Shown: in pieces, positions 7,349 to 40,056 of the stretch
How the letters are laid out: each line of letters begins with the position of its first letter
Position numbering within the stretch: the stretch's first letter is position 1
DNA from: Apostichopus japonicus
Taxonomy: Eukaryota; Echinodermata; Holothuroidea; Aspidochirotida; Stichopodidae
NCBI RefSeq assembly: GCF_037975245.1
Contig: NC_092566.1
Location: 17,455,001 to 17,519,000 of the forward strand
Reading direction: 5' to 3'
Length of the DNA: 64,000 nt
Program-made: the position numbers and the translations under genes
The notes under the pieces: model-generated
Seen by the model: only the letters and a program-made list of their open reading frames with translations
The model's database searches: none
What the model was told of the DNA's origin: nothing

Positions 7349-7560
7349 CTAGAGTTGGTTTAGCAGATTCTCCAGTCGCTCGTCGAACCCCTTGACAGTC
7401 TTGGGGATTTCGTTGCTGGGACGAAGCTCAAAGTTGCAGATGGATGCAGTCTCCATCTCGGCAACATAGCAGGTTTTGGTCTCGGAGCTGTAGCCATCCG
7501 CGGATGCGGTGACCCTGTAGGCACCGCTGGTCAGGAGACGCCAGTAATCGCCGTCGAGTG
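7349..7560 (-). CDS. Carboxypeptidase exon 7 (C-terminus, stop TAG)
   Basis: Acceptor CCAATTGCAG. Encodes [18 protein letters not shown], completing the transthyretin-like domain, then a charged tail ending in [10 protein letters not shown] and TAG at 7349-7351. The tail is amphipathic, not a GPI signal. Confidence 0.92.
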
Positions 7561-10500: not shown

Positions 10501-13500
10501 GCTCTCGAAGGGCTCCAGGCACAGCGTGAAGGAGTGACTGGTTTGGGTGGATCGTCTGCCTAAACCTACCATTCTGATGTAATGCAGCAGTGAGTTCAAG
10601 TTATCCAACCAGTACTGTTGGAGTTCACTCTCGGGAGGCATCTTCACGCAGCTCAACTCTATGGTCAGCTCGAAGGTATTGGTGTGGAGGTAGTTGTAAT
10701 CTTGCATACCTAGAAAGGAGGAGATTAAAGAAGAACTATGATGTACCAACAAAATCCCAGTAGTAAGATTTTGTTGCGAGTGACTGGCATCTGGCCTCCT
10801 CAAATCTCATATGAGTGTTCATACTGAGAGGATGTTATCTAAACAGGGGATCCAAAACCAGACATGATCCTCTGCTCGTTTTCCAGTGTGAACACTGCCT
10901 ACTATTATCCTTTATCACTTCCCAATTATCGCCACCTCGCCACGGACTTACCGCCACTTAATGGATACCATTCTGCTCCATTAGTGATGCCATCTGGGAA
11001 CAGCTGTGAGCCCATGTCAGTGCAGGCCGCCTTGTTGCCTTGCTGTGACATGACCGGATGCCACTGGGAGTAGCTCAGTGCCAGGAAGCGGAATACGTCG
11101 TTGTCGGGCGACACCGAAAAGCCCTTCTTCCCAGTGCAGCTATCATCGTAGGGGTAGTTGGCTACGATGTCACCACCGTGCAAGTTTGCTGATAGAACAA
11201 ACGGGTACTCCTGCAGCCACTCTATAACTGCTTCTGTTTCAGGTTCAAGCTGGAGATGAACCAAGAATATTTTTTTTAGTTTGTTTTGTTATATGCACAA
11301 TATATATTCACTGTGCTGGTAACAGCTTCCTCACACACCAGTTAAACACCAAACATAGAATACTTGTAACATTCACTGCGCTGGTAACAGATTCTTCACA
11401 CACCAGTTAATCACCATACTATGAATACTATGTGCTGGTAACAACTTCCTCACACACCAGTTTAGCAAATTACAGTGAATACTTACATTCACTGTGCTAA
11501 TAACAGATTCCTCACACACCAGTTTAAACACAATACAGTGCATACTTACCTTCAATCTGCCGGTAACTGCTTCGATGTGGTTGTTAGGTCCGTGTCTACG
11601 GGTGTGGTCAAAATTAAAGCAGTTCCGTTTGTCTCCAAATAAAACTCTATCCAAGTCAGGAAAGTTTCTATTCAGATCTTTGTCGTTAGCATTTGTGCGA
11701 CCAACCAACCAATCATTAGTCGATTCTTCTTTTAACTGACCATTAAAGAAAAAGAACAGTATGTTTGAACTGACCAATGATAAAAAACAATATTTTTGAA
11801 CTGACCAATGAAAACCCAGTTCTCAAGTTAAATACATCATGTTTTCTGCTTCTTTCACATCATTCTTCCTTTGACAGTCTTAAGTCAAGTACCACTGCCA
11901 GACTATGACAAACATCAACACAACATGCCAGCCCAAAAGTTCATCAATATCATAAAACTTACTGGAAGCTGGCGGAAACGCACAAAGCAGTTTCGCGGAA
12001 CTACTACCTGAGAAAGTTATGCTACTCAAAAACGAACACATGGGCGTGGGTCGCACACTAAAAACAGCCCCCAAACTCCCTCCCTTTATAAGAAAAGGAT
12101 ACTTATCAGGCTGTAAAAGACTGTAGAACGTTCTGAAATCCCAAAAGATGTATAGAAGGTAAAAATCCAATGTATTGCGGGCAATTTCCGTAAGATTTGG
12201 TATCCACTACAAAAACTCATGTCTAAACACTTTGGATGGTAGAATGAGAAGGAAGGGCAACGACCGGAGGAGCCGGTCACTGAGGGTGCACAGTGTTAAA
12301 AGATTACCAGGGCACACTAGACACGGTAGAATGAGGTGCTAAGGTTGTGAGGAGACAGGTAAGCGAGGAGCGAAGTAAATTTCAAGCAACTTGAAACAGC
12401 TCAAAGATAAAGGCTATCATCCTCGTGACAATTTTAAGTCACAACACCGTTCCCTACACAGGAAGAAGATGATATAAAGTAAAGGGTCAAGTTAAAGTCA
12501 AGTGGTGACTGCTCCAGGATGTCTTAAGTTCACCCCTGTTGCTGTACATACACATTGACAATTGGTAAAACTAGACCATCTGATGTGCCGGTGAAGAAAA
12601 AGGCTTCCGAGGACAACACAAGAAGTGCAAAGGCTTGACCGAAAGAAACCCTCTGGGGAATATTTGGGAAACCTAACATACAAGTACTGTAACTTACTGT
12701 ACAGGCCTCTTACTGAATCAACAGTCATTTTGAATTCATTTTGAAGTGTACCCTCCTTCATATTTAGGAATAATTAGGCTGGAGATTCATTTTTTTTTAA
12801 ACTGTCAGCGATATGAGTACAGTATGAAAGAAATCGGAAGCAATACCATTATTATACCAATATCTTATAAATTATGACATCTTTTTTGTTGGTTGTACCA
12901 CAGTACGGAGGGGTATCTCAATGCTGTGAATTTGGTTTACAGTTTAAGTGAGATATTCTGCACATAAATGAAAGTTTGTAAGATTTGTAAGAAATATAAA
13001 CTTATTTACATTTTTCCTTTGAAAATTAACTTGGTTCTTTCAGACAGCTTTACTTTTATATATATACACTTTAAACTTATAACAAGTCAAATTTATAATA
13101 TAAACTTTTTTTCAATATGGCTTTGAAAACAATTAATTTGGTGCTTTCAGACAACTTTACTTTTATATATAGAAAACTTATATTCAACAGTCAAATTTTG
13201 TAATATATAAACTTATTTTCAATTTGGCTTTGAAAAATTAATTTTGGTGCTTTCAGACAGCTTTTACTTTGATATGTATGTGGCAAAAACCTTCCATCTG
13301 GCTTCATGGCTGCTAGGATACCACGCGACAACGGCAGGCCTGATTCATGTTACTGAACGATTCATAGAATTTCACGTGTCAACGACAGACAATTTCACGT
13401 CGTGACATCTCCCATTTGACATTGTCACTTTTACAGACACAGTTCTATATTACAGGCATGAGCTTTTTCTTCAAATTCGCGGAATATCCGTGATTTCTCT

Positions 13501-16500
13501 TCTACCTCGGGGACAAAAACTATTATCCTAACACACTGTAGCATACACAAACTGGAGCCTATACCGCAATTTTTTTTTACCCCAGGCTCATCCCTGATAT
13601 TATTTACCCATCTTTCATTCAGGTCACTACTATGTACAGTGTGTTTAAACTCTAACCTGTTTGAGAGCCTTTGCGAATCCGTCCGGATTCATGGTCGGGA
13701 GGATGTGGATGCGGGTGTTATTGACCAGCCACTGTATCCGCTTGTTACCATTCTTGTACTCCTTGCAGAAATACTCGGGCAGCGTGAGTAGCAGCTGACG
13801 ACCCACGGCTTCGTTTCCATGCATGTTGCCGACATATTTAAACTCTGGTTCACCTGTAACGAAGAAACAAGTACATAACGGGTATTAAAATCAATGCAGG
13901 GTTTGGACCATTTCTACGAGCTGAAAAAATGATGAGGTATATACTGTATAAACTGAGGTTGACCTGCCAGTGTGTTAGCAGAGGTGCAGTCCAATTAATC
14001 ACTTAAACAGGACCCCTGCTTTAACAGACTAAACCACTTTAACAGGACCCTGCTTTAAAAGACTTTACCACTTAAAAGGAGCCCTGCTTTAAGAGACTTT
14101 ACCACTTAAACAAGTCCCCCTGCTTTAAGAGACTTTACCACTTAAACAGGAACCCTGCTTTAACAGACTTTACCTATTAAACAGGACCCTTGCTTTCGAA
14201 ACGTTTCCTTGGCAAACGATGTTGTGATATTCCAAGGTAGAGAAGGCTAGACAACTGACCCATAAGGATTATAAGGTGGCATACACCTATTAGGTGTATT
14301 AGGTGTACCTATTGGGTATATACACCTATAAGGCGGCAAACATCTATAAGGCGGCATACACCTATTATCCACACGCTTGATTGTTCCCCTTCAGGAAAAG
14401 TGCCAAAAAGCAGCAGGAGAAATGTTTTTTGACCTGTTATCAATCATGATCTAGTTTTTTGTTGCTTGCATGTTGAAGAGCATTAATGGAAGTACATGTG
14501 GTAGAAAATTGGGTCAATTGAGGCAATTTTAGACCCCTTTAGGCCTCCCAGGAGCAGCGTACACAAAATTGTTTACTACTGAGTGAAGAGGTTTGTTTAC
14601 AAGTGACGAAATCTTCCGGCTCGGATAGCAAAAAATCTACATGGTCATGATACAGAAGATTGATGGTGCCACAAAGGCCAACTTGTCAGCTATCCGGTGA
14701 TGGGTAGCGTTAAGCAAGTGAGAACTTCTATCTAGACTTAGAGACCACATTACTATTGTGATTTCGTGTGTAAGTCAATGGGGCTTTTAATGGGCATATG
14801 CTACCGTAAACTGTGCATGTACTCTGTTATAATTGCTGATAAAGAGTTTGTTTGATTGTAACTGATCGCACACTCTCAGAAAGCTAACTTCAAACAACAG
14901 CAGATGTACACATATAATTATAACAGTTTGGGAAGTGTGGACATAAGACTACATTTGTTGAAATGCATTTGTCTCTTGATGTCATTCTTTTAATATTCCA
15001 AAAGATGCATAATTAAACAACCATGAACAAAGATAGAAATAAACAAAGACTTTTTTAAAATTTAAAATCAATCATTGAAGTTGACAAATTTAGATTCCTC
15101 CTATTTGTTTTCCTGCCTGGAAGGTAGACAAGGTGTGCGGGGAGGGGGGTATAAATGTTATATTTTTCATTTGGAAATAATTTGGTGGGTGGGATGGGCA
15201 ACAAAGGGGTAGATGGAGGGAGTGGAGAGGTGAATAATTCTCCTTTTACTGTCATTTTGAGGAAGGAGAAAAAGAAGTAACCTTGTTTTGTTGGTTTGCC
15301 AAAAACCTGCCCCACAGCACACATTTTTTCCTTCCCCCTCCCAAAGAAGTTTATGATGCAAAAGAGGCCCGCTGAGTGCTGACAATTAAGCCTTACTAAG
15401 ACAAATAGCTCATTATTGGGATCTTTTACATTCAAATAGCTTTTTGTATTCTTTAATTTAGTCAATGGTTGCATCAGAATGCCAGTGATAAAAAAATATG
15501 ACCAAATAAGGCAGCATTATTTTCTTTCTCTCCCCCCCCCCCTACATTTCCGTTTCAAGTACTTTCTCAAAATCTATCTGCGTGGGTGATGTTTACTGTA
15601 CCAGTTAATGATTCATTGTATTTAGTGACAGCTCACTAAAAGCTCCCAAACTCCTACTAATGAGTTTGACATATTTATGACACAGTTAAAACTGGAATGT
15701 AAAAAGCTAATTACACTCTGGTTCTAAATGTCAAATACCGCAACATATCTGTTGAAAGCTGCACGTTTTAGTCACACATCTTCATCTCTGTTGCCTGCAG
15801 GGAATGACTTTTACATCAGCTGAAGGTCTCGTTTACCTCTCCAGAGTCGATTTAAATTTATAATGCTCAAAACCGGCAGAATCTCTTCAGATTCAAATCT
15901 TGGAATTCGAAATCCACAACAGTGAGATTGAGAATGACGATCACTTCAATGACCAGTAAAACCACTAAATCCAGGCTTAATTTAAGCTTACAAAACTGAA
16001 ACAAGTAAGAACGGTGTCTTTGATTTTACAGCAAACTGGTAAAGCGAGTACTTCTTTAGTATAATGTGATGGTTAAGTTTATAATATACAGTGTACCTAC
16101 AGTACTGTACTGTACAAAGTTAAGTACAGTATAATGTCATTTCAAAACAAATGAAATTCAGCAAATTCTATCAGCTCACAAGAAAATGACCATAAAGTTT
16201 AGCAAGTTACTCCTAGTGCATGTACTACGTACTGAAGTCACAGTAAATCTACTGACTTAACTTTAAGTTGTTTTAGATTTCAAGTACAGCACAGTTCAAA
16301 CCTCTCTACCCCCAGGGAATAATCCCCCCACCCCAGTATAGCATTGCATTATGATACTTGTCCAAAATGGTCAAATTGTTATTCAAGTATGTACAGTATA
16401 GCAGTTTTTGTACACAGAAACCTTAGTATTTTCAAAGGGACAAAATACAGAACCTTCAAAGCTGCAACACAAAATTTGATGAAATGCTGAAAGTTTTCTT

Positions 16501-19500
16501 TTGACCTCTATACTGTACGAGTACAGTACTGTAAATGCTTGTTTATTGATGCAGTGTTACACAACATTTATACTACAGTAGCATACTGGTCTACTGTAAC
16601 AATCTAGACACAGTACAGTATATGTTACATTTATTTAAACACATACTAACATACTGCATATAAACATTTAAGAGGCCGTGTAACACATACTGTAGTGCCA
16701 AGCTACTGTATATATATGCTTGGCACATACTGTACTTTATAATGCATGTAATTACCACACTATATCCCTATATTACCAAATATATATATCAATAACATCA
16801 AATTTCTGTACTCTGACAAATTCTGATATAACGCAATTAACTTCGCTAATTCACACAATGTTTGCATTAAACGTCAGTACCCCTTGTCCTCGACAGCATG
16901 GAATAACAATATAAGGTCTCTTTTTAATGAGGAGAAAATTTGATTCCCATGGCAACCGTCTCTTTCCAACCTACGTCAGAGTGGAGTTGAGTGGTGTGTG
17001 ATCTCACAGTTCTACGGCTTCTGATTATTGTACCGTGGCCAGGCTTGAAGTACGATAGCACGGTACGGTACACACATAACTTACAGTGCAGGGCACTGCA
17101 GGCATTGGTATGTAGAGTCAAACCGGCACACTTCACCAGTTTTGCACTGATATTTAATAACTTGTATAATTTTACCACCGGACGGCACTGTGTAGTTAAG
17201 TGTAAAGGGTGCAGGAGGGGTGCAGGAGTGGTACAAAACAGTCGTACAGTTACAACAGGGTACAGCTCTAAGAAATAGATCTTACTTCAACGAGACTGAA
17301 GTTACACTATGTACATTTTGTAAGGTCTGATCATAATATAGGTTACAGGAAAAAAACAGTTAATTGCTCTGATCTAGAAAACATTGCTTCATCATTGCTT
17401 TTAAATACAAGTTTATTTACTTGCTTACTTTATTATTATTAAAATTAATAAAATATGCTGGTATATTTAATCTCAGTGGCTATCATTGTTCCAGCAGGTC
17501 ATGATAAACAAAATTGTTTATGATTCATTTAATTGACATCAATTTGAAATAAAAAATAAATAACAATAAACATTTGGCTTTCTGACACATCTTACAATAC
17601 AGAATATTTTTTATAAATTTTTTAACTTTCATGAAATGATTTACATTTTAAAGCAAATTTATACGCATATCAAATTGTAGATTTGGTAAGAAAAGGGTAG
17701 TGTTGTGCCTGGTCATTGTGGGGTGCAGTGCAAGTACAGTATGTTAAAAGTTGTTATAAGAGCTACTGTACTGTAGGTGGATCGAAATCTATACAGTATG
17801 TATACTGTAAAAGACAGGTAGAGAGAGAATTAAATACTGGCCATTAGTTGACAAAGAATGGCTGACCTTGACCAACTTTAGCTTGAAAAGTTCTAATTAA
17901 TTAACTGCTTTGAATCCACTGAAAACTAATCTCACAAGTTTGAAAGATCTATCATCATGCATTGCATTTCCTGTACCTTGCCAAGGATGGCCTACTTTAG
18001 CTTAAAAAGTTCTAATTAATTAACTACTTCAAATCCACTGAAAAATAATCTCACCAGTTTGAAAGATCTATATATCATGATTTCCTGTATATATTGCATT
18101 TCCTGTACCTTTTCAAGGATGACAAATCCGAAATGACTTCACTGTGTTGCTGGTAGTGTTGCTGGTAGTGAATTACATTGTGAATCTTTCTGACATTATA
18201 TGCAATGTCGATATATATATGTAAACTCTATAAGACTCTTACATATAAGACTATACTTAAACTCTATCCTTGTGCTTTCAACGTGGAACATATGTTACCC
18301 TTTGGCATTTCCAAAAGAAGTGTATTGCGAATTCTTTGGTCGACAGATTTTTCAAGATATGTGCACTAGTTGGGAGGCCATTGTCGACTGACAAGATTGT
18401 GTATACATAGTACATACACTAATGTAAATAATGTGACATGAACGGCCCTTGTACTAATATTTGCCCTTCATGAACAGGACATTAAAATTTTGTATTTGAT
18501 TAATGGAAATTATCCCTTTCGAATTGTTAGGTATGGGATCTGGGCCTTTGGCAGTTACTTTATGAAAGCAATTGTAGTTCACACACACCGTGAAACAAAA
18601 TACTTATGAGAATACACTGGAAAAAACACACTGTAGGACCTGTGAATGGTACTGTAACAAACTAGATTATTATATATATTATTTTTTTCTGTACCATAGA
18701 TTCTGTCATTCAGAAGGAGGAGGGTCATGATCTTAAAGGGACATTGGAGGGGGGAGGGAGGGGGAGGGAGGAGGGGAATGTAAGAATGTTACCAGTTTGT
18801 GGTTATAGGAGACCGGTATGAAAGGAATGATTCAAGTTTAATAATTTAGTACAGTACAGACGTTTAGACTACAGAACATGCTGTAAATCTAGTTATTTCC
18901 CGCCTGATTTTAATACTCCATTTCCACCCACGCAAATAACGAAACAAACACTGAAATCACTTGCTGGACCTACTAACTATCAATTTACACATGATGGTAC
19001 TTACCTGTCTCACCTCTGCATGCACTCTGATTTTCTGTAACTACTGAATAAGCTACAAAATGTGGTAACATTAGTTATAGCACAGCCAATCCCGTTGAAC
19101 CCTCCCCTCCCCTTCCTTCTTTTCCATTGGTTACATTTACTGTACATAGTTTACAGTACGTATGGATGGGGCACAAGTTTCTCGTCATGAATCCATGAAT
19201 TGAAACACAGACTATACTATACACATTTATACCATGGCAATACTGAACTTGAAGAATTGTTCTGTACAGTATGTCTAATTTTATGCTACAAACATTTAAA
19301 AATGTGCAGCGGGGAGAAGGTGGGGTGGAGGAAGAGGGGGGGAGGAGAGAGGGAGGGATGGTGGACACCTCAGTGACCTCACCAAACATTTTACAGACAT
19401 TAATACTTATTGTCTGATGTCTACTTTAACCTTCGTCAATGGATATCAATTGAAAGGGGAGGACAAGTAGAGTATCTACAGTATAGTAGGAAGGAGTATT

Positions 19501-21906
19501 TGAAAACATTTGGCAAATATTATAGCAGACTAGATGCTGGGAATAATTTATCCAGTACATCGCATCGCAAAATGCTACACAGTATTAGCTACTGTAATTG
19601 CCGTACGAATGCAAAGATGTACATAGCAATTTTGTACATAGGAAACATAGAACTTTATCAGCTCTAGACAAAATTCACAGCTTTCAAAACTGCTACAAAA
19701 ATTTTGAACAAAATTCCTTGTGACAATACAGTTGGCGAGTTGAGAAAAATGAAAAATGAACAAGTTATTGCACTACTGGAAGGCCTGCACAATACCACAC
19801 TTAACAATACGGTAAGTATATATACATTCATTTATAAATTTATATAATTATTAATCTTATTTATGTCAAAGTTTGAATTGTGCAATGTTCTATTATATAA
19901 CTAACGTGACCAATTCTTGGTTCCGAACCGATGAGAGAAATTATTGATGATACTTGTAACTTAAGTAACCAAACAGCCATGTCTCAACTTAGTAGCTTTT
20001 TAAAATAATAAAAGTCAGGGCTTTCTCAAGATCTACAATTTTTGTCTAATCCTTCAACTGGTGAGTATTTAAACATTAAACAGGTTATCGGGTCGCCTGC
20101 CACGTGTGGTCTTCGCATCAGTATTGATCTTGGCGGCGGGGGGGGGGGGGGAGGTAATGATACTTGTTGCTGTTGATTTAGAGGTGTTTTGGCATTGTTA
20201 TCAATCAGTAGGGGTACTGAATTAGGGTAGCTTCAGTAATTAAATATATACTGACATAGTCTACTGTACAGTACTGGCAAATATATTGTACAGACTTCAC
20301 ATACAATTTTATCATTTTGGGCTTGATTAAGTACAGTGCAGTACTTCCGATAAACTGCGCGCTTTGTGCAGAGTAGTGATGTAAAACAATAGGCTTGTAA
20401 TTACATTAATAGTTTTGCTTTCATATGTCAATTCCTGCAAGAAGTGAACCTTCTGTGACTTGACATTCATAGACTAAGCCTAGAGGGCTTCAGTAGGTCT
20501 GAAAACTAAGTATTTCATACTAGCGTAAAAGTCCACACTATGCCTTCTTGATAAATTTATGTCATGAATGCTGATTGTTCACAAAAGTTAACAAAAACCG
20601 TAAAGTCATGAATGTTAACTGAGGGTTGGTGGACCTACTCACAATTCACAACCTTACTTCACTCTACCTTGAGCATATCAACACAAATTATTCTTAAAGT
20701 CCCATTATGCAATCAATCTCCACATCTTTCTTCTTTATTCTTGAGTTTTAAATAATAACACAATCGATTTGATTGAGCAAGTTTAAAAAGAAAAGGTGTC
20801 CTGTCTTTGCTACACAATTGGTAGAGCTAAAAACATTAATCGGACACAAACCGGGGAACCAAATGGGCTAGTCTAGGCATAGTAATGAGGAACATGTCAC
20901 GTGACTTCCATGGTTGGTACTGTACATGTTTTCTTAACTATAGTATAGATGTTTTTTTACTTTTTGTGAGATATGTCATACTGTTGCCTAGAGACTAAAC
21001 CTGCATTTTTTTTTTAAATTGATGGGTAGCCTATGGCATTAGCAATAGGTATGAAATACAATGGATATACTAACAACATGAATTGGGGTAGTGGTCTGAA
21101 GTACTATAACAAATACAAGTTGGGCCTAACTTTAGAATCTGTACCATATGATTAAGAACGTATAGGGGTTAGGAATTAGGGCTAGCTAGGGGCAGGGAAT
21201 ATGGGTTAGGAAGTAGGGTAAGGGAGTAGGGTTAGGGGTTAGGAATTAGGGTTAGAAAGTAGGGAATAGGAGTTAGGGAGTAGGGTTAGAAAGTAGGGAA
21301 TAGGGTTAGGGGTTAGGAAGTAGGGTTAGTCGAATGGTACGGATTCTAAATTAGTACCATTAATACCATAAAAGAAACCCTACAAATTGACAATTCATAA
21401 TCATGGACGTTAAAATATGAATCTAAGAGACTGACTTCGGTCAGCTTGCGGCTTTGATAAGCCAATGATGGCTTCATCGCGAGTTCCTGTTTGCAGGATC
21501 TAAAATTTACATACATACATACAAATGTAGCCTAGGCCTAGGCCTACACTGTAGCCTATGCTAACAAGTAACAGACCGAGACCCTATATTTGTCCTGCAC
21601 TGACACAGGCTAATAGTAATAATACTAATAATAGGTCTAGGACTATATTTGTATCTCACCAACTTCATGAACCCCTGGATTGCTGGATATCTCGATAGCT
21701 ATGAGTTCCCTCCCTTCTACGCTCGGTATAGAAAGGCTGTACACTCGCGTAATTTCTGGACAATCTGCATTGACATCGTGTAGGATCTGTGTCATTTGAT
21801 CATGATCTTGGTAAACCCAATCATGATCTTCTACTGAAAATCCACCATCACTGGAGGTTGCCAAAACCAGGGAGAATACCCCCAATAGAGAGCAGAAAAC
21901 CCTCAT
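7349..21906 (-). CDS. Secreted M14 metallocarboxypeptidase (N/E subfamily), seven exons
   Basis: Join on the minus strand: 21906-21660, 13853-13657, 11735-11550, 11249-10952, 10709-10570, 8824-8725, 7560-7349. The sum is 1,380 nt, 459 codons plus TAG, and all six junctions keep frame. The protein starts with a signal peptide ([16 protein letters not shown]). The catalytic domain has zinc ligands H94 and E97 ([11 protein letters not shown]) and H234 (SANLHGGD), substrate-binding N170-R171 (DLNRNFPD) and the presumed general base E327 (TIELSC). A transthyretin-like domain follows from about 357. Family knowledge: these enzymes remove C-terminal Lys/Arg from peptides in the secretory path or outside cells. 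The length fits CPN1 or CPE (about 460-475 aa). There is no GPI-type hydrophobic tail, which argues against a CPM-like anchor. Activity and the exact orthologue (CPE versus CPN) are inference. Confidence 0.93.
7561..8724. repeat. Carboxypeptidase intron 6 with inverted AGGTCA-type repeats
   Basis: About 8030-8460 contains three or so degenerate repeats with TGACCT hexamers, the reverse complement of the family at 3180-4560. They alternate with CAATAGGGT...CACTCA(T/C)CAAG...GGATC blocks. The rest shows nothing recognisable. Confidence 0.55.
8725..8824 (-). CDS. Carboxypeptidase exon 6 (start of transthyretin-like domain)
   Basis: Acceptor GTTTAG, donor GTAAGTAC. Encodes [15 protein letters not shown] and [16 protein letters not shown], matching the beta-sandwich domain that follows the catalytic domain in this subfamily. 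Too short and unsuitably framed to appear as a long open frame. Confidence 0.9.
8825..10569. repeat. Carboxypeptidase intron 5 with retroelement-like fragments
   Basis: About 8975-9240 is strongly pyrimidine-rich. About 9278-9420 is a repeat end with the inverted repeat GATCCTGCTAGGATC and an A/T-rich TTTATTTTATTTTTA tail. It resembles 3' ends of retroelements common in marine invertebrates. About 10070-10340 is another fragment, starting with an ATA run and containing TATAGCGCTTAA...AGCGCTTTACAAAG, a motif shared with the tail of the SINE at 62.5 kb. No exon is seen apart from the flanking ones. Confidence 0.45.
10570..10709 (-). CDS. Carboxypeptidase exon 5 (catalytic glutamate)
   Basis: Acceptor CTTTCTAG, donor GTAGGTTT. 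Encodes [15 protein letters not shown] and [15 protein letters not shown], the latter holding the presumed catalytic glutamate. Ends in phase 0. Confidence 0.92.
10952..11249 (-). CDS. Carboxypeptidase exon 4 (third zinc ligand)
   Basis: Acceptor TCTCCAG, donor GTAAGTCC. Encodes [11 protein letters not shown] and [18 protein letters not shown], where the histidine is the third zinc ligand. Ends in phase 1 within the conserved WYPLSGG-MQD motif. Confidence 0.93.
11300..11549. repeat. Minisatellite of about 55-65 bp abutting a splice donor
   Basis: Four imperfect units each contain CTGGTAACAG or a variant followed by TTCCTCACACACCAGTT. The CTGG marker falls at about 11316, 11381, 11435 and, as CTAA, 11497. 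A fifth related block at about 11540-11575 is the end of carboxypeptidase exon 3 with its donor. On the minus strand at least one unit carries a decoy donor (GTAAGTATTC). Confidence 0.8.
11550..11735 (-). CDS. Carboxypeptidase exon 3 (DLNRNFPD substrate-binding motif)
   Basis: Acceptor GGTCAG, donor GTAAGTATGC, 62 codons. Carries [19 protein letters not shown]. The donor end looks like the last unit of the minisatellite that fills the following intron (11300-11549). Confidence 0.93.
13005..13280. repeat. Tandem repeat, about 115-120 bp, three copies
   Basis: Each copy contains a TTTGAAAA-AATTAA stretch, then TGGT(G/T)CTTTCAGACA(G/A)CTTT(A)CTTT and a TATATA run ending in AAACTTAT. Three copies lie in a row in carboxypeptidase intron 2. 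Confidence 0.75.
13453..13596. mobile_element. MITE with CAGGnATGAGC inverted ends
   Basis: Left end CAGGCATGAGC and right end GGCTCATCCCTG are inverted copies. The six bases ATATTA flank both sides directly. The interior (ATTCGCGG..., CTACCTCGGGGACAAAAAC) is repeated in inverse orientation at 48911-49065. The superfamily is uncertain; ends of the CAGGG type occur in hAT elements, but those usually duplicate 8 bp. Confidence 0.75.
13657..13853 (-). CDS. Carboxypeptidase exon 2 (zinc-binding HxxE)
   Basis: Flanked by acceptor GTTACAG and donor GTTAGAG. Encodes [17 protein letters not shown] with the first two zinc ligands, then [13 protein letters not shown], a strongly conserved block. Ends in phase 0. 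Confidence 0.93.
13995..14200. repeat. Minisatellite, 37-38 bp, about six units
   Basis: The unit reads approximately ACTTAAACAGGACCCTGCTTTAA followed by CAGACTTTACC. Six imperfect units run head to tail in carboxypeptidase intron 1. Confidence 0.85.
17865..18120. repeat. Tandem duplication of about 125 bp
   Basis: Two copies share AAAAGTTCTAATTAATTAACT, then AATCCACTGAAAA(C/A)TAATCTCAC(A/C)AGTTTGAAAGATCTAT and TTGCATTTCCTGTACCTT, with minor differences. Intronic. Confidence 0.8.
21165..21335. repeat. Interstitial telomere-like tract
   Basis: Degenerate TTAGGG-like repeats (GGGTTAGG, GGAATTAGGGTTAG, GGGAATAGG) run for about 170 bp in one orientation in carboxypeptidase intron 1. TTAGGG is the telomere repeat of deuterostomes. 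The degeneracy suggests an old internal tract, not a chromosome end. Confidence 0.75.
21402..21523 (+). mobile_element. SINE-like retroposon, partial copy
   Basis: Matches the insertion at 29694-29905 through CATGGACGTTAAA, CTTCGGTCAGCTTGCG, TGGCTTC(T/A)T(T)CGCGAGTTCCTG and a terminal ACAT tail (ACATACATACATAC). The tail and dispersed nature suggest a short non-LTR retroposon. Confidence 0.7.
21660..21906 (-). CDS. Carboxypeptidase exon 1 (start codon and signal peptide)
   Basis: The ATG at 21904-21906 opens a hydrophobic leader, followed by the N-terminal part of the M14 domain with [19 protein letters not shown] and [12 protein letters not shown], which match the family. The exon ends before a GTGAGAT donor in phase 1. 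The next exon completes a glycine and continues [12 protein letters not shown]. Confidence 0.9.
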
Positions 21907-22102
21907 ATTGGTTACTCTGATTGTCCTTTACCACTTCACAAGGAATGTCACCTTTAGATTTTGTTTTAAATGTCTGATTTCGATAGAAGTTCAGTACAAA
22001 AATTATGTGGCTTGTTTGCGCGATCGCTGATAACGTGTAAAGACTATGCATGCAATACTGTACGTTCAACTACTACTACAAGCATATGGACAGTCGTAAA
22101 AT

Positions 22103-22112
22103 ACACTATATA
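22103..22112 (-). promoter_or_regulatory. Possible TATA element of the carboxypeptidase gene
   Basis: TATATATA lies about 200 bp upstream of the carboxypeptidase ATG. If used, transcription would start near 22080 with a 5' leader of about 170 nt. There is no other support, and AT runs are common here. Confidence 0.25.
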
Positions 22113-22237
22113 TAATTACATAGTGCGCTGAGCGGATACGGATGTTACTATACTGTTGGTGATATCTGACGTCAGTGATTGACTAACTGGTCCATATAAA
22201 TGAATTTGCATCACTATAGTTTTATGGTTATTCGTTT

Positions 22238-22276
22238 AACCATGGAGCTATAAACCAGGTTTATAGCTCCATGGTT
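22238..22276. repeat. Perfect short hairpin (19-bp arms, 1-bp spacer)
   Basis: AACCATGGAGCTATAAACC is followed by a single A and then its exact reverse complement. The 11-bp sequence GTTTAACCATG occurs at 22234-22244 and again at 22274-22284. A second hairpin with a similar border (AACCAGGGAGCT) lies at 31548-31591. Confidence 0.85.
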
Positions 22277-22627
22277 TAACCATGTAAGCAGGATTCAACC
22301 AGATTCGCGTGATGTTCTAAAGTTATTTATATTTGGTAAAGGTGAAGAACTTTTCCTACGTTTCATGCTATTAAATATTTGTAGGAGAAGTTGGAAATTG
22401 TTTTGCATTTCTAAATCTGAAATTGGCCCTAAATGTCAACATACCAATTGTTCAAAGTTTTCACTAGCGCAGACATTAATGTGGCAAGCCAAATTAATTA
22501 ATTAATTTTCTGGCACATGTTATCTTCAGCAAACAATAAAACAATTTTTTTTTTATATATCAGAAAATTATGAAGAAACTGCAAGAGAGTAGATATTATA
22601 CTAGTCAAAATCATTCGTGGGAACAAG

Positions 22628-23938
22628 CAGTGGCGTCGTGCCCATTGGGGCCCGGGGGGCACAGCCCCCCCCCCCCCAAATTTTGTCAAAGGTGTCATAA
22701 AATGTTGTCATAATTTTAAAAAAAAAGTGTTTTGAAATCTAAAAGAAGACTAAATTGTCAATTGCTCTTTGATGGTCGTTGCGGATTTTCTTAACGTCGC
22801 TCGTGCCTATCAGCCAATTCTCACCCTGCCAGTCACTTCCTGCTCATGCGAGCGCAGCTTTTCGGCGTTAAAGTTTGTGAAGAATTCGTTGCGGACGAGC
22901 ATGTCCCCAAGCACGCCTGAGTGACCTGATGGTGCTGGCCACGCACCCCGACTGCGCGAAAGCGTGCAAGCAGACTGCCATTGACTCATTTTGGAACCTA
23001 ACTCAGCGACGTTGAATGAGAACAGTGTCAGCAACTGAATTTCTTGTAGGGCCTACGAGAAATGGGGCTTCTGTTGACTGCTTGGTCAATGGCTGTTAAT
23101 TGTTGACATTCAGTCAATCGAAACAGTTAAATAATTACTGGTTGATAACTAATGAACCAAATGTGCGATCAACGCTGCCATCGTCGAACAATATTATATA
23201 TACGTAGTCTTAGAGTAAGTGCAACCCGTTACCTTTGCCAAAGTCAGTCAATTTTCCATGAAAAAAATATCCAAGCCTGTAACAAAGCCGGAAAGTTAAG
23301 ATAAATGTAGTGAACAGAGATTATGGGACTCCATGTGAACTTCTTCTTAAGTAATGCAATCAGTTCGCTAAAAGGTCCACCAGGATCAATTTTCCTCATG
23401 ATCTGATAGGTAGTTACGAAAAAAAATTAATACTAATAATCATTTCAAATACAGTCACAATTAACCTGTAAAATAATCACTTCGTTATCGCACGTTTTAC
23501 CTTAGGTTTCGCTACTCTCGCTTTTTCTGCCCATGTTTTCAAACGGCATAGCTTTTTCTTCACCCAGTGACCACTTCTCACGGGCATGGGCGACAATCAT
23601 GGATCAGCCAACACAAAAATGTTTCGATTTCTTAAACTTTGGGCGCTTCTGGGAGACGAGGAATTGGTAAACTGAGGAATAAATGGCGATCAGTTCCTTC
23701 GAGAATATTTCCCAAAATAAAAAATTGCCGGAAATTGTTATCAATGTTAGGGGTGTTGCTTACTGCCATAAGGCACGGGAAGTGCCGTTTCCTGCAATCT
23801 GATGGGTCTGCCAGACGAAAAATTTTCTTGTACGCTGCGCGCCAACCTGTGGTGGCGCTCCGCTTAGATAGTCATCACCTGCTGACGGCCCCCCCCCCCC
23901 CCAAAAAAAAATATATATATTTTCGCACGACGCCTCTG
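22628..23938 (+). mobile_element. hAT-family transposon, internally deleted
   Basis: Terminal inverted repeats CAGTGGCGTCGTG (left) and CACGACGCCTCTG (right) are flanked by a perfect 8-bp duplication GGAACAAG (22620-22627 and 23939-23946), the hAT signature. A transposase remnant lies inside at about 22807-23012. The right part holds the core block shared by other MITEs here (about 23775-23875), next to a C run. Confidence 0.9.
22807..23012 (+). pseudogene. hAT transposase C-terminal dimerisation domain remnant
   Basis: The plus strand encodes LPVTSCSCERSFSALKFVK followed by NSLRTSM, the conserved hAT dimerisation block. A frameshift near 22910 moves the reading to RLSDLMVLATHPDCAKA and then a stop at about 23012. 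No DDE catalytic region or zinc finger is left, so it cannot encode an active transposase. Confidence 0.8.
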
Positions 23939-23946
23939 GGAACAAG

Positions 23947-24952
23947 TCGAAAAACTTTTATATAGACAACTTAAAATTCCAGAAGAATTTTGAGATCTAT
24001 AGCCTAGTTGACATTTCGATTGAGTAAAAAGATGAGGAAATTGTAAGACAAATTAGACTATTTGTAGATAAAATGAAAGTTGAAAGAGTTGACATTCCAA
24101 TGTCGCATTCGAGCGCCAATTTATGATACGATATAGCTTCCTATCCCTGCACTGCTCTAACATTTTGCACCCCATTGGACCAAGGAAATGGTAAGACCAA
24201 ATTTAGCACACTTTTTTGGGGGCATAGGGGTTGGGGTGGGGGGGGGGAGGTCCATGTGTTGTCCCAAACATTACTGACAAAAGGAAGTTTTCAAAAATTC
24301 TTTTCCCCACATGTTTATCAGGTTTATTTGAGAAGTATTTAATTCAATATCACGAGATTGTGAAAAATTGACGTAACTTCATGTGAAATGTTGAAATTTG
24401 CGATTTGGCAGTTTATTTGGCTCAATGTTGGTATCAATGGAAAAAGAATTTGGGACAAGACTACCACAGAAAACCCTTAGAATTTATTTTTAAGATAGCA
24501 GATATTGTATGATTTTAATTTTCCTCACATGTGACGGAGACTAATAGAAATCATCTTCCATATAGCTAAGATATTAAATCTCTTTCTTGGCCCACCTTGG
24601 GGCACAGGAGGACGGTTAAAACTATAGAGCGTTAGAACTTCTAGAGAGATTCTTGTCAGAACTTTTTCGAAAATTTGATTTGCTACGAAATTGGGGAAAT
24701 GGTGTGGTAGGACTGCATGTTTTCTGAAACCTAGTTTTGGACTCAGTGGGACCAATGATGTACTTGCTGGAATTGGATTTAGTTATAAATAAACAACAGA
24801 GAAACAGACACATGTTAGAATTAGGTCAAAATTTGTTTACGCTATAACGGTAAACTTGTATTAAACCCAACAATCGGCCTCTGACGTCAACAAGTCTTCA
24901 AAACACAATTTGCATCGAATTGAATACTAAAAATTAATTGAATATTCATTTT
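23947..24952. other. Intergenic DNA, 3' flank of the minus-strand paralogue
   Basis: No gene recognised. TTTATT at about 24484 and 24411 would be AATAAA on the minus strand and could serve the gene ending at 24953. A G run lies at 24238-24249. Confidence 0.4.
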
Positions 24953-25581
24953 TCATGTGTCATCAGGAATATCGCATCCAAAGAGTTGAACAAATAACTT
25001 TCCAGCGGTATCAAGGAATGACGTCATGTAGTAAGGACTAGACACTTCTTCTGATTGGTCAGTGTAGCTCCTACTGGCGAGTTTTTCAATGCACTTACAG
25101 TACACGCTCAATTTCGGCTGACGGTCTGTACTAATGAAGCTGAACAGGTTCCTCTTAATCTTATCTTTGAGCCCTTCAGGTTGTGTCTCATCAAGGAGAT
25201 GGTAAGCCTCTTTCAGATCCTTTCTGAATGAGCTGTTGTACCCAAAAGAACTTTGCAAGGGATCTTCGTGACTGACTTTGATGACTGGCTTTGCGATGGA
25301 TTCGCCACGTCCGCGTTCTTCTTCACTTTCAACGGCGTTTGCTATCGGTTTGCGTTGATCAAGTGGAAAAGAGTCAAGCGCCCTCTTTCCGTTAAGGTCT
25401 TCTTTTTCTGGCTTTAGCAGAGACTTTCTCCAATTTCGATGTAACGTCTTCGTGACGTCATCGGTAATTCCAATCGTCATCTTGGAGCGATGCATGATAG
25501 GAATTTTCTCCTCCTTGACGATGTCTTGAAGGAGCACAGCGTTGTTATTGTTGGCATTACCAACATGATTGATTGTTAAAT
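24953..25581 (-). CDS. Exon 2 of the minus-strand unrecognised gene
   Basis: Starts after acceptor ATTTGACAG and completes an aspartate codon with exon 1 (MENTF-D-LTINHV). Runs open to TGA at 24953-24955. An in-frame ATG upstream of the acceptor (25586-25588) would be intronic. Confidence 0.85.
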
Positions 25582-28086
25582 CTGTCAAATATAATAACGT
25601 TAATATTACACGGCCCCGTTACAGTACATCATGCAATTTTCACGTTTTACATTAGTTTGATGTGCCTACGATGTATACTTAATAGTTTCTACCAAACTTC
25701 CAGTTAAGCTTTATAATTTATACTGCAAGAAATGTATGTGAGCAACGACATATTTAGGAGCTTTCACAGGAGATAAATTTAATGTAGTCAAGCAGTGGCG
25801 GAGAAACAGGGGGGGTTGGGGGGGTTTTAACCCCCCCACTTTTTGAAGAGGGGGGGTTGGCCCACACAATCAACCCCCCCTAGTTTTTGCCAGTAATGTT
25901 CTGTTATAGCCTATGTTATGTGCTCCAAATGGCATAATAAATCAAATTATTAAATTTGAAATTGTTAAAGTCATTTCAACCTTTTACCTGGTAGGCTACA
26001 TCAACAATTAACGACCGAAAACCGAGTTAGAATTGACCGACACATTATTTCTAGCCCCTTTCCCCCACCTTGCGCATTGGAACTTGTAGCTCATAGCGCT
26101 AACTTCACCCCACAACAGAAATACACAAAATAACGTTTTGTTGCTGTTGAATAGCTTTGGAACTGCATACACTTGCCAACTTCAACGAGGTGAAGGAAGG
26201 AAAAGAAAAAGAAGAAAGAGAGAAAAGGATGGAGTAGAAAATACGGCAAGAAAACGGGAAGAGGAAGAGGAACAGTGACAAAATTATTCGAATTTGTAAA
26301 GCAAACAGCAGATATCACATCATATCAGTGAGCATGAAAATGGCGTTCCACGATAAACAGCCTCCAAACCATGGGCGCAGATCCTGGTGAGGACAGCGGG
26401 ACGCGTACCCACCAACATTTTCAGTAGTGGGGACATGATATACCGTGTCCCCACCAATTTGTCTTTGCATTTCAAGTTCCCCTGTATGGAACTTTGGCGC
26501 AGTTTGATCCAGCATTGTGCAAATGACATGTAGCAGTTCTCATTTTATTGTATTTTATCCACAGTTGTTAAATATAGGACGGAAATCGCATTTGCGGCAG
26601 CCTATATTTGTTTTCTGGGAGAGGACCCCAGACCCATCGTATATACAAAAGTCTACTTGGATTATTTGTCCCCTGATTTTCTTTCTGCAGACGCCCATGT
26701 ATTTCTCCAAACTAAATTTCTAAGCAATGAGATCTAAAACTTAAGGAGGTTTAGGAGCATCATTAGGTCTGGGAAGTGTTATTTCCGGCGATCTGGGAGG
26801 TATATTTGCCCCAAAAAATCGTACGCTACGCGCGAACCCATGGTCGCGCTCCGCTTAGATAGTGTCATAGAACAGACACGCGTCCCCACCAATATCCAAG
26901 ACTGATCTGCGCCCATGGTCAAAAATGTCGATGTGTGTAGTGTTCGGTTTCGGAAATATCTGGTATATTTTTATTTCCTTGAACGAAATTTTTTAGTAGC
27001 CGTCTGAATTTTCGAAAATTCCCTAACCAACATTCTTCATCATACTTCATCATACTTGTGCAATTTTGACCCGTCTGTTAGGGTTTGAAGGAGGTTTTTC
27101 TATATCGGTTGTCCATTGATGATATTTTGTGCAACATTATGGGTATGTTTTGAAGTGAATTTATTCACGAGAATTGTGAATTTTCAAATTCTGAACAGTG
27201 GGGCTGACGGATATTGTGGGCCGCGATGAAGAATCACCTACAAAAGCAATGATCCACAGGATATGTGATGAAGTCGAACATGATGTGTGACTGGTGACAA
27301 TCTTCAAAAAGGTTATAGATGAAAAAAAAAGTATTTGGAAAAAACTTGGTTGTCAGGCAAAAGTGTACATATGGTTGGTCAGTTTCAAGCCATTTCAAGT
27401 GCCATTTCCGGTGATCTGGGGGTACCAAAACCAGAAATTTTCTTGTACGCTGCGCGCCAACCAATGGTGGCGCTCCGCTTAGATAGTAATACGCGCCCCC
27501 CGGGTTAGAAAATCCTGTATACACCCCTGGTTAAATCCAGCTTTTCAAGGCCTGGGCAGTGCCATTTACTGCAATCTGGGAAGCAATATTTGCCAAAAAA
27601 TTCTTGTGCACTTCGCGCCAACTTATGGTGGCGCTCCACTTAGATAGTGAGCCAGCAGTTATGACTTTTTATTTCATCAATGGCCTGCAACCCCCCCACT
27701 TCTGACAAGAAATCTCCGCCACTGTAGTCAAGTTTGGACAAAGCGAACTTTTTCGATTATCTTGTTTTTCTTTGGAACGAGTCTATTATTTATTTAAAAT
27801 TTCTGCCAAGATTAAAGTTGATAAATTCTATATGGTACATTTATTAATAGAGAACACCAATGCAGACAGCATCATGAATTTTATAAGCTTTGGAATAGGT
27901 TGCAACACTAAACACTACATTCATTAGCATATATAGATACAGTAAACTGCATCCCATTTAGCCAATTCTAAAACTGTATCATAAAAGTTATTACTATAAA
28001 TAGATAGATAGAAACTTTACCTACAAATATTCTGTCTTTGTATGAAATTGGACTAGTTTTGAGTACTTACCAAAGGTATTTTCCAT
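24953..28086 (-). CDS. Unrecognised two-exon gene, minus-strand member of a divergent pair
   Basis: Join: 28086-28071 (16 nt, encoding MENTF plus one base), then 25581-24953. The total is 645 nt, 214 codons plus TGA. The donor is GTAAGTAC, the acceptor ATTTGACAG, in phase 1. I do not recognise the family. The N-terminal half is polar and low in hydrophobics (HVGNANNNNAV, DDVTKTLHRNWRKSLL). The C-terminal 110 residues look alpha-helical and globular (SSFRKDLKEAYHLLDE, KIKRNLFSFIS, SVYCKCIEKLASRSY, FLDTAGKLFVQLFGCDI). There is no signal peptide or membrane segment, so it is probably intracellular. A paralogue faces it at 29159. Its intron carries a 1.9-kb hAT element. Conservation between the two copies supports a real coding gene. 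Confidence 0.8.
25793..27724. mobile_element. hAT-type non-autonomous transposon in the intron of the minus paralogue
   Basis: Ends CAGTGGCGGAGA and TCTCCGCCACTG are perfect inverted repeats, flanked by the perfect 8-bp duplication TAGTCAAG (25785-25792 and 27725-27732). The element is a mosaic: it contains three copies of the shared core block (about 26767-26866, 27395-27488, 27548-27650) and a nested element at 26370-26917. Without it the host intron would be about 550 bp, near the 366 bp of the paralogue. No transposase frame was recognised. Confidence 0.92.
26370..26917. mobile_element. Nested MITE with CATGGGCGCAGATC ends
   Basis: CATGGGCGCAGATC at the left and its exact reverse complement at the right bound 548 bp inside the larger hAT element. 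Flanking bases do not show a clear 8-bp duplication, so the insertion may be old or the ends recombined. It includes one copy of the shared core block. Confidence 0.7.
28071..28086 (-). CDS. Exon 1 of the minus-strand unrecognised gene
   Basis: A 16-nt coding exon, ATGGAAAATACCTTTG, directly followed by donor GTAAGTACTC. The plus-strand paralogue has the same-length exon at 29159-29174 with one amino-acid difference in the first four, and the bases before ATG (AACAGATA-AATC) also match. Confidence 0.8.
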
Positions 28087-29158
28087 GATTTTATCTGTTG
28101 TTAACAGATAAACAAGTTAAATATGTTGTACGTAATAGTAAATATGTCTTCACTTTTCTAAGGCAACTATTGTTGTGTATATGTTTTCTTTGTTTTTCAC
28201 ACACAATTGTGTATTACATCTATTGCTCTCTGTGATTCAACAATGACCCGTGTGAGCATAACGTCATTATTATACGGCGTGCCCCAGATGCGTGAATGCG
28301 ACTTAAGAGTATGCACATTGACTGGGAAAACAGCGTCAGTCACAATTTTTGTTTTGGGCGTTTTGCGTGACCAGCCAGACAACATTAATGTATTTGGTCA
28401 TGCGGTATGATGTGCGCAGGTTGTCGGCGTTCTGAATAAATCAAAGACTTCCGGCGCTAGATTGATGACTCCTATACTGTTAACACACAAACACATGAAG
28501 CCAGTACACGCGCGCGTCTGCAGAATAAGATTTCTTGAAGTGCGTTCGTATACACGTAATGATGAAGCCAACGTGCGCGCGTATATGCGCTGGGTATTCA
28601 TTTAGCTGTTGTTCGTTTTGTGAAACTAGTACTAGTAGTAGTAAGTTGAGTCTCGTCTATCCGACATGCTCAGTGATTAACCTCCGCGACGTATCACGAT
28701 CTTGCGCAGGTTTATTACTTCCTCGAAATTGTTAATGTTAACGTCCTTAAATTGCGACTTTATTTTTCCAAGCAAGGTAGTCACGGGTAGTCACGGGCAG
28801 TTTTGTGAAACTGCTTTGCCGTATTTCGTTGTGATATGTTACCGCGCCGATACAATTTTTTTTTTTTCTGCGCAAATGTGGCATCAGCAATACTGCAACT
28901 AGTATTACTGCGGCGAAACGGACCGTTTGCGCATCAGGACGCGTTATAATATTTGCACCTCTGGCAGTGCCATGAAACAACGCATAGTTCTACATTGTTT
29001 AGTCACAAACAACAGGAGGTTTGTTCAATATGGTATAAACAGAAACAAACAAAACACATATATACACAACAAAAGTTGCCACAGAAGTGAAAACATAATT
29101 ACTACGGTATTACGTACAATATATTTAACTTGTTCATCTATTTGAAACAGATACAATC
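28087..29158. promoter_or_regulatory. Shared intergenic region of the divergent pair (candidate bidirectional promoter)
   Basis: 1,072 bp separate the two start codons. The outer parts (about 28087-28200 and 29030-29158) are inverted homologues, for example ATTACGTACAA...ATATTTAACTTGTT and CATATA(T)ACACAACAA(A/T)AGTTGCC on each side. The middle 830 bp are not obviously related. Conserved promoter-proximal arms suggest co-regulation; that is inference. Confidence 0.55.
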
Positions 29159-29174
29159 ATGGAAAATATAGTTT
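29159..29174 (+). CDS. Exon 1 of the plus-strand paralogue
   Basis: 16 coding bases (ATGGAAAATATAGTTT) followed by donor GTAAGTAC; phase 1, same structure as the mirror gene. The upstream sequence AACAGATACAATC mirrors that of the other copy. Confidence 0.75.
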
Positions 29175-29540
29175 GTAAGTACTGATTATTCAACTAATTT
29201 CTGTTATAAACTATAATGTTTTCGCTTTTCTCTCGGCCACAACATCAAATGTAAGTTGAGCGGCTCTACTTGATAATTATAGATCACTAAAATCATTAAT
29301 ATATTACGTATAACTATTGAACTCCCTTTTTACTCTAGTTATACTATAACAACGATAGCTGCATGGAGTAGGCTATAGGCTTGTTTGGAAATGTTATATG
29401 CAAATAAGAACATTGATCAGTTTTAACAGTTACGCGTAAAGGTAGGTCAAGTGGACACTACAAATGTAAGCCAGAAATGTTGAAACCGTCTTGCGTAATG
29501 CAAAGTTAATTAACATTTTGTACTCGTTGTTTTTGGACAG

Positions 29541-30438
29541 ATCCAAAAATCAATCATGTTGGTAACGCCAACAATAACAATGCTGTGCTCCCTCAATACA
29601 TCGACACGGTGCATAACATTCCCATCATTCATCGCTCCAAGAAGAAGCATGGAACTGCTGGTGATGACGTAACGGAAAAGTTACATCGAAATTTTTACAT
29701 CCCCGTTAAAAGTTACATCCCCGCCGACAGCAATGTGTGTCGTCTGGCAAGGGTGTTGTTCAATAACAACTTCCCGACATGGACGTTAAATGGATGTGTG
29801 CCGAGAGATTGGCTTCGGTCAGCTTGCGAGTCTACAAGCCTCCATGGCTTCTTTCGCGAGTTCCTGCTTGCGGGAAGATCACATATACATACATACATAC
29901 AAATTGGAGAAAGTCTCTGCTAAAGCCACGAACGAATCGCCCTGATGAAAAGAGGGCGCTTGACTATTTACCATTTTGCCGAGCTGATATGACAAAACAT
30001 GACGTTGCAAGCCAGGGCAAAACTGAGGGCGTCACTCCAAAGATCCTTAAACCCGTTGACTCGAACAACCACTTGCTATCTGTTCCTTCGCACAAGCGTC
30101 TTAAAGAAAACCAAGGGAGCTTTAAGAATCCTTTGCAAAGTTCGTTTGGTTACAGCAGCTCATTCAGAAAGGATTTGCAAGAGGCTTACCATCTCCTTGA
30201 TGAGAAACAACCTGAAGGGCTCAACGATAAGATTAAGAGGAACCTGTTCAACTTCATAAGTACAGACCGTCAGCCGAAACTGAGCGTGTACTGTAAGTGC
30301 ATTGAAAAACTCGCCAGTAGGAGCTACACTGACCAATCAGAAGCAGCCTCAAGTACTAACTGCATGACGTCATTTCTTGATACCGCTGGAAAGTTATTTG
30401 CTCAACTCTTTGGATGTGATATTCCGAATGACACATGA
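29541..30438 (+). CDS. Exon 2 of the plus-strand paralogue (contains the insertion)
   Basis: Begins after acceptor TTTTGGACAG and completes a tyrosine codon. The part after 29906 encodes SSFRKDLQEAYHLLDE and ASRSYTDQSEAASS, close to the minus copy, and ends in CDIPNDT. Translation through the insertion in the original frame fails. Confidence 0.75.
29694..29905 (+). mobile_element. SINE-like retroposon inserted in coding sequence
   Basis: The insertion is bounded by AAATT on both sides (29689-29693 and 29901-29905), a target-site duplication. It ends in an ACAT tail (ACATACATACATAC), and its 3' half matches the copy at 21402-21523. Comparison with the intact minus-strand paralogue pinpoints the insertion between the bases encoding LHRN and WRKS. 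Confidence 0.88.
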
Positions 30439-30612
30439 AAATGAATAATCAAATCACTTATAATGCACAATTGTAACGTGAAGCCTATGCCACCCGACCC
30501 AGCGAGAGGTTCTCGTCAATAATACATAATTGTTTAGATAAATTACTGTTTGTTTTGATTAATTACTTTCTTAACTCACTTAAGCGAAAGCACTGATTGC
30601 TTTGTTATGGCG

Positions 30613-30618
30613 AATAAA
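30613..30618 (+). terminator. Poly(A) signal of the plus-strand paralogue
   Basis: AATAAA lies 175 bp after the stop codon, a usual distance for cleavage and polyadenylation. Confidence 0.5.
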
Positions 30619-30878
30619 TTTTTCTTAAATTTGTAAATTTAACTTTGCTGATTAACTTCTGTCCCAATCCTTTGCGAAAGTCCAATAGTCCGATGATAGA
30701 AACTCCACCCTCCTCTTACTACTTATATACGCTAGAAGCTTTTGAATTCATAACATGACCAAATCAGTATTGTTCCCCAATATTCTAAAAACTCAAATAT
30801 CGAACTTCAGCACACAGTTTACTATAGTCTACCACAAGCAAAACGGTCTTTGATTACTGAGAAGTGTTAATAACTAAT

Positions 30879-34092
<3,214 letters not shown>

Positions 34093-37145: not shown

Positions 37146-37524
37146 CAGTGGCGGAGCGTCCATACAGTCAGGGGGCGGATGCCCCCCCCCCCCCCCGACG
37201 GACTCAAATGGACTGCTGGCGCTCTTTTCAGCTTTTTACCACTTTTTACTTATTCGCGATTATTGACTTTTTTATTGCGCTCTCATCTACTTATTGACAT
37301 TTGTCACATTATGTTGGCGATGACACCTATTTATTCTTCGTTTATCTGCTAATTAACAAGGCCTGGAAAGGGTAATTTCCGGTGATCTAGGAAGTATCTT
37401 TACTCAAAAACTTTCTGTACCCTCCGCGCCAACCTGTGGTGGCGCTCTGCTTAGATAGTGTCGAAAGCGCCCCTATACAGACCATTCTCGACCCCCCTGA
37501 CCAATACCCCTAGCTCCGCCACTG
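37146..37524. mobile_element. hAT-type MITE, 379 bp
   Basis: Ends CAGTGGCGGAGC and GCTCCGCCACTG are inverted repeats flanked by the perfect 8-bp duplication GGCAGGGG (37138-37145 and 37525-37532). Contains a C run and one copy of the shared core block at about 37362-37462. Confidence 0.92.
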
Positions 37525-39129: not shown

Positions 39130-39478
39130 CAAGGGCGGCGGAACCAGGGGTGGGCACGTGCCCCCCACTTTTCCTCAGGTTAAAAATGTGCCTTTTTTCT
39201 TCATCAAAATTGAGGTGCCTCAAGTTAGCAAGAGGCCTGGGAACCAGAATGAACACTCGATCGGAAAGGGCCGTTTCCGGCCATCTGAGGGGTTTGTAAA
39301 ACCAAAAAATTTCTAGTACGCTCCGCGCCAACCGATGGTGGCGCTCCGCTCAGATAGTACAATAAGAGTTATAGTGGGTACTAAATATAAGGCTGCATCA
39401 ATCCAATCGAATTTCTGCGAAATGCCCGTTGTGTCGGTGCACCCCCCTCCCCAGATTAAAGTGCTTCCGCCGCCCTTG
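39130..39478. mobile_element. Nested hAT-type MITE, 349 bp
   Basis: Ends CAAGGGCGGCGGAA and TTCCGCCGCCCTTG are inverted and flanked by the perfect 8-bp duplication ACCTGGAC (39122-39129 and 39479-39486). Holds a shared core block at about 39258-39360. It inserted into the older element 38740-40048. Confidence 0.92.
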
Positions 39479-40056
39479 ACCTGGACATCCCCAACATGAG
39501 TGTATATAAGAAGCATTTTCTTTTTCATGGATGATGGGGGGGGGGGGGGGGAGTGCCTACAAGCCTAGAAGTACAGGTTTATCATATTCTTTGTTATATT
39601 TTATACTTTTTTGTGAGACAAATTGCAGTCTCACCCGACACAGCGACATTATTCCGCCTACGTGTCGTTGAACAATGTATGTTTTTCTGGAGGTAGCTGA
39701 GTACCGTGTTAAAATATTAAATAAGGTAACTAAATAGGAGCTTAAAAAATATACTGTCCGATTTTCCCCTTCAAAGTGATGTTACCATTTTTTCTTCTTC
39801 TAATTTAGCAAATTTTTGGGGAAGTGTAAATTTCTAAAACGTGAGATTATAAAATAAAGAATGTTTAGATGCAACTTGCAAGGCCTCAGAAGTGCCGTTT
39901 CCGGCAATCTGAGAGGCATTGTGTGCCCAAAATTTTCTTGTACGCTACGCGCCAACCAATGGTGGCGCTCCGCTTAGATAGTGTCACGGGAACTTTCGGG
40001 CACAAAAAGTTCTGCCCCCCCAAACTGAAATGGTCCCGTACGCCTATGACTTTTCC

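Follow-up and report, generated by a model that had tools for sequence, protein, structure and literature searches.

Three described systems come closest to the locus considered here. Divergent duplicate pairs are paralogous genes that lie adjacent on opposite strands with the same exon phase, and that may share a bidirectional promoter. Unprocessed pseudogenes have a broken frame while keeping their intron and splice sites, and the break can be made by a short interspersed nuclear element (SINE), a dispersed sequence with many near-identical copies and a simple-repeat tail, that has landed in an exon. SHLD1 (shieldin subunit 1; Pfam PF15021), finally, is a small DNA-end-protection protein whose N-terminus varies and whose C-terminal half is conserved. 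We compare with these a pair of paralogous two-exon genes of the holothurian Apostichopus japonicus, gene A on the minus strand and gene B on the plus strand, placed head to head in a stretch of 64,000 nucleotides (contig C6, 17455001-17519000; the window, within which all positions are counted). Taken as a whole, the explanation that we favour, and hold to be rather probable, is that a gene of no named family has been duplicated in inverted orientation, and that A is open, B is freshly disrupted, the C-terminus of the protein is constrained and some gene conversion has run between the copies.

An inverted pair of two-exon genes

The original prediction described two genes pointing apart, each with a coding first exon of 16 nt in the same phase, with homologous proteins and with about 110 bp of inverted homology upstream of each ATG, and all of this is borne out. 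As read from the sequence, the coding part of exon 1 lies at 28086-28071 in A, where it encodes MENTF and the first base of codon 6, and at 29159-29174 in B, where it encodes MENIV and the first base of codon 6; the two exons are homologous and their start codons are 1072 bases apart. Both introns, at 25582-28070 in A and 29175-29540 in B, are in phase 1 and run from a GTAAGT donor to an ACAG acceptor, and exon 2 follows at 24953-25581 in A, stop included, and spans 29541-30438 in full in B. Comparison of the two proteins confirms their homology. Paralogous, adjacent, on opposite strands and alike in exon phase, A and B form a divergent duplicate pair.

The homology extends into the 5' flanks, at 28087-28195 on the minus strand for A and 29047-29158 on the plus strand for B, two arms that are 80% identical across 114 aligned columns (some 110 bp). 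When the genome (671.6 Mb in 35 contigs) was searched with a 5' arm, two places were matched, both at this locus. The A protein matched three stretches at E values up to 0.001, all within A and B, and the 3' part of B had two matches at E up to 10, namely B and A, so that protein queries found no further copy of the gene beyond this locus in the whole genome. Between the arms lies a spacer (28196-29046, assigned to neither strand) with a ratio of observed to expected CpG of 1.37; the ratio is 0.62 over the window as a whole and ranges from 0.58 to 1.02 in seven further stretches near the two genes. Such a value would be expected if the spacer were an unmethylated promoter region active in both directions, and it may be one that A and B share.

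Exon 2 of gene A is open, and the whole protein has 214 residues, of which residues 110-214 are encoded at 25270-24956. The stop-free stretch to which it belongs has 221 codons; in 60 simulated 64-kb sequences, matched to the window in dinucleotide content, no such stretch went beyond 189. Gene A probably makes a soluble protein of 214 residues and, being the intact copy, it is a reasonable target for annotation. Its intron, which cannot be aligned to that of B, holds a DNA element of 1932 bp (25793-27724, given no strand) with termini CAGTGGCGGAGA and TCTCCGCCACTG and an 8-bp flanking repeat, TAGTCAAG; termini and flanking repeat are as in hAT elements, and we take it to be hAT-like. Once this element and one copy of the repeat are removed, the intron of A would measure 549 bp; that of B has 366 bp. 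A dispersed repeat of about 95 bp, with pairs 76-96% alike, is also seen in the window (23776-23872, 26713-26867, 27397-27488, 27543-27649, 37357-37462, 39262-39359 and 39827-39986).

Interruption of gene B

Gene B does not have the single main exon that had been claimed for it. Its exon 2 begins with a part (29541-29693) which, acceptor included, is identical to A in 131 of 161 aligned columns, and is then interrupted at 29694-29905 by 212 bp on the plus strand that have no counterpart in A, are bounded by AAATT at both ends (one copy being counted in the insertion) and shift the frame. The 3' part (29906-30438) is open in its own frame, which is out of frame with the ATG of B. Reading from that ATG meets a stop at 29921-29923 after 132 residues, of which only the first 56 come from the exons of B itself. 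As assembled, B cannot make the conserved C-terminal domain from its own start codon. With its frame broken and with its intron and splice sites kept, it has the structure of an unprocessed pseudogene, and the idea of two working genes is not supported, B being disrupted by a dispersed element.

That element is a 5'-truncated SINE-like sequence ending in ACAT repeats. A search of the genome yielded 1343 first-look candidates, the best 40 of which were scored; B itself is among them, and the remaining 39 are 100% identical to the insert over about 183 bp. Those 183 bp were present exactly in all seven copies that were fetched from elsewhere in the genome. Six of these carry before the shared core a head, possibly tRNA-derived, in which motifs like the A and B boxes of tRNA can be seen by eye; the seventh (L006) has the B-box part only, and the copy in B lacks the head. 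Many dispersed near-identical copies and a simple-repeat end are features of SINEs that the insert shares, and the label 'SINE-like' is used because of this copy number and structure. In one copy (L005) Rfam also placed mir-297 rows, which lie on the ACAT repeats, fall below the gathering score of mir-297 and were set aside. A diverged relative lies at 21402-21526 (100 of 129 columns identical).

The SINE-like element has probably been active recently, and the identity of the insert to so many copies points to a recent insertion into B, one that may not be fixed. We must consider here that both genes could be functional, if the sequenced animal carries the insertion as a rare or heterozygous allele, or if splicing bypasses it. 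An insert identical to copies elsewhere may still be polymorphic, the 3' part of B, itself open, closely resembles A, and four of five candidate AG sites are in frame with it. The frame of B as assembled nevertheless ends after 132 residues and the AG sites are candidate acceptors only, and we regard this account as quite unlikely. There is likewise a small chance, on the reading frames seen here, that B gives an alternative product, starting from an ATG at 29779 or reached through the in-frame AG sites. We prefer to see in B a duplicate that has probably been caught at the moment of its loss: a mirror-image copy broken by an element still identical to other copies in the genome.

Selection and possible conversion between the copies

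The homology of the two arms is a mosaic of conserved blocks and unalignable stretches. After the block at the start of exon 2, the next one, past the insertion, is identical in 66 of 83 columns, and the last 326 bp, which run about 15 bp past the stop, have 301 identical positions, with 88% of the residues of the C-terminal part identical; the C-terminus is thus better conserved, as had been said. The middle, described as less conserved, is in fact of two kinds: residues 56-79 of A can be aligned with B (a score reached by none of 300 shuffles), whereas residues 80-109 (25271-25360), when set against 29977-30123 of B, cannot be aligned at all (a score reached by 51 of 300), which goes beyond mere divergence. 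In the introns, in the 3' flanks and in the DNA beyond the 5' arms, A and B align only at the level of shuffled sequence.

Codon comparison separates the two ends of the protein. Over residues 1-79 (78 codons) there are 9.5 silent differences in 50.5 sites and 35.5 replacement differences in 183.5 sites, giving a silent divergence (dS) of 0.217, a replacement divergence (dN) of 0.224 and a dN/dS of 1.03 (bootstrap 0.50-2.57). Over residues 110-214 (105 codons) there are 12 silent differences in 62.0 sites and 14 replacement differences in 253.0 sites (dS 0.224, dN 0.057), with a dN/dS of 0.257 (bootstrap 0.12-0.60). At residues 80-109 the silent sites are saturated (15.5 differences in 20.0 sites) and the ratio is uninformative; over all 213 aligned codons, this unalignable part included, it is 0.57 (0.40-0.87). 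Fisher tests on rounded counts give p = 0.001 for silent against replacement changes in the C-terminus, and, for the C-terminus against residues 1-55, p = 0.0007 for replacement changes and p = 0.79 for silent ones. The C-terminus is under purifying selection as a protein, and selection on the N-terminus as a protein is not detectable. A dN/dS near one, which the original prediction had named as speaking against it, is found for residues 1-79 and not for residues 110-214, and of the constrained helical domain that it proposed the constraint is established, while helicity is only suggested, by helix-like hydrophobic moments in part of the C-terminal segments of A.

At a silent divergence of only about 0.22 one would expect the introns to be alignable still, which they are not. 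Blocks that are alike beside unalignable introns mean either that conversion homogenised the blocks or that insertions and deletions replaced unconstrained sequence. It could then be proposed that the conserved blocks are alike only because gene conversion has recently run between the inverted arms, and that the C-terminus is no special domain. This would suit the uniform silent divergence of 0.22 in residues 1-79 and 110-214, next to residues 80-109, introns and 3' flanks that are unalignable; yet at equal dS the two parts differ in dN (0.224 as against 0.057), and conversion alone would not give that. We consider such an account unlikely, if still to be reckoned with. Purifying selection on the C-terminus, probably accompanied by some conversion, is the interpretation that we retain. 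Moreover, the insertion apart, both frames have been kept despite differences in length between A and B, as would be expected had both genes been coding until recently.

We can understand the locus along the following lines. A small inverted duplication of one two-exon animal gene has given two copies, both probably transcribed outward from the CpG-rich spacer. The protein of A would consist of a fast-changing N-terminal half and of a C-terminal domain, compact and about 105 residues long, on which purifying selection acts; this domain is probably a binding module, presumably helical and for proteins, and the whole would most likely be a small adaptor. Gene B would have been working until lately, because the codon comparison shows selection and because the frames were kept, and was then interrupted by the SINE-like element, leaving 132 residues from its own ATG and no conserved domain. 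The likeness of the 5', N-terminal and C-terminal blocks would reflect constraint together with some gene conversion between the arms.

Several observations weigh against this construction. A raised CpG ratio is met in other stretches near the two genes too, up to 1.02; the N-terminal dN/dS is near one; and a single pairwise comparison, that of A with B, does not separate constraint from conversion. As for the insert, its complete identity holds for the best-40 slice of a repeat family, neither ARAGORN nor Rfam recognised a tRNA head in the six copies out of seven that were considered (L006 left out), and AAATT is short for the target duplication of a SINE. The C-terminal frame of B, lastly, belongs to a stretch of 219 codons that starts at the ATG inside the insert, with a putative product, and the candidate acceptors lie in or before the insert.

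Identity of the family and comparison with known systems

The family had been called unrecognised, and in Pfam and in the sequences of the PDB it is indeed unnamed: Pfam scans of the whole A and B proteins and of their C-termini gave no family over its cut-off, and searches of PDB sequences gave nothing under E 0.7. The Pfam rows for Vps54_N, AvrPphF-ORF-2 and TPGS1_C, weak and mutually inconsistent, were rejected as chance; Vps54_N (PF10475) reached 11.5-14 bits with A, for a cut-off of 27, and gave no such row with B. Rfam had no match over gathering scores at 20000-32000. Viral and prokaryote contigs yielded no relatives, as one would expect of an animal gene, and among the matches listed by literature searches no title concerned the pair.

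There is one named protein that deserves discussion, for A and B might be distant forms of SHLD1. Size and layout are similar, the residue numbering of SHLD1 running to 205, in the part of PMC9240092 that concerns it, as compared with 214 for A. Human SHLD1 shows, by eye, RK.L...Y...QP, CKC and SF...F..GC in the same order; 67 of 2000 shuffles attain the BLOSUM62 local score of A with it; and the rest of the genome gave no clear SHLD1. The similarity to human SHLD1 did not, however, prove to go beyond chance, and hidden Markov model searches, phmmer and hhalign gave no significant match in support of the resemblance. PF15021 gave no row for the C-termini of A and B at E up to 10, although the filters of HMMER may drop weak matches, and in the whole genome it had three matches (best E 1.5), none at the A/B locus and none over the cut-off. 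We deem this identity very improbable. Were it true, this DNA-end-protection protein would occur outside vertebrates, against the published view that it originated with class switching; and the family would matter more if it turned out to be a diverged repair factor, a step that the present tests do not support.

Other features of the window can be mentioned briefly. In a satellite-like array at 670-2746, a unit of 324 bp is repeated 5.6 times over 693-2510 with 97% matches; related copies flank that stretch and AT-rich arrays adjoin. A second array, at 43742-45227, has about 31 copies of a 48-bp unit and shows higher-order periods of 193 and 241 bp. At 21162-21329 there are degenerate repeats in which GGGTTAG is frequent and which look telomere-like by eye. 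On the minus strand, the region 7352-21927 has three exon-like stretches with matches to M14 zinc carboxypeptidases (10929-21927) and, at 7352-7633, a match under cut-off to a carboxypeptidase regulatory domain; an SH3 domain exon lies at 46047-46256; and a stop-free stretch of 1420 codons (55364-59623), rich in D and S by eye, has no Pfam match at E 0.001. The M14 carboxypeptidase and SH3 matches among these neighbouring exons are in keeping with a chromosome of an animal.

No new kind of system is needed to account for this locus, which can be understood as a local duplication of the ordinary sort, affecting a gene not yet characterised. From SHLD1, A and B differ in having no significant sequence match, while they resemble it in their small size, in a conserved C-terminal half and in a few residues that follow in order by eye. 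Like unprocessed pseudogenes made by the insertion of a SINE in an exon, B has kept its splice sites and has a coding exon split by a dispersed element, with a repeat of 5 bp on its flanks; it differs from them in that its insertion looks young enough to be possibly one allele only. Finally, A and B are like divergent duplicates with a shared bidirectional promoter in their inverted orientation, in their homologous 5' arms and in their CpG-rich spacer, and unlike them in that one member is disrupted as assembled, the spacer being a putative promoter.
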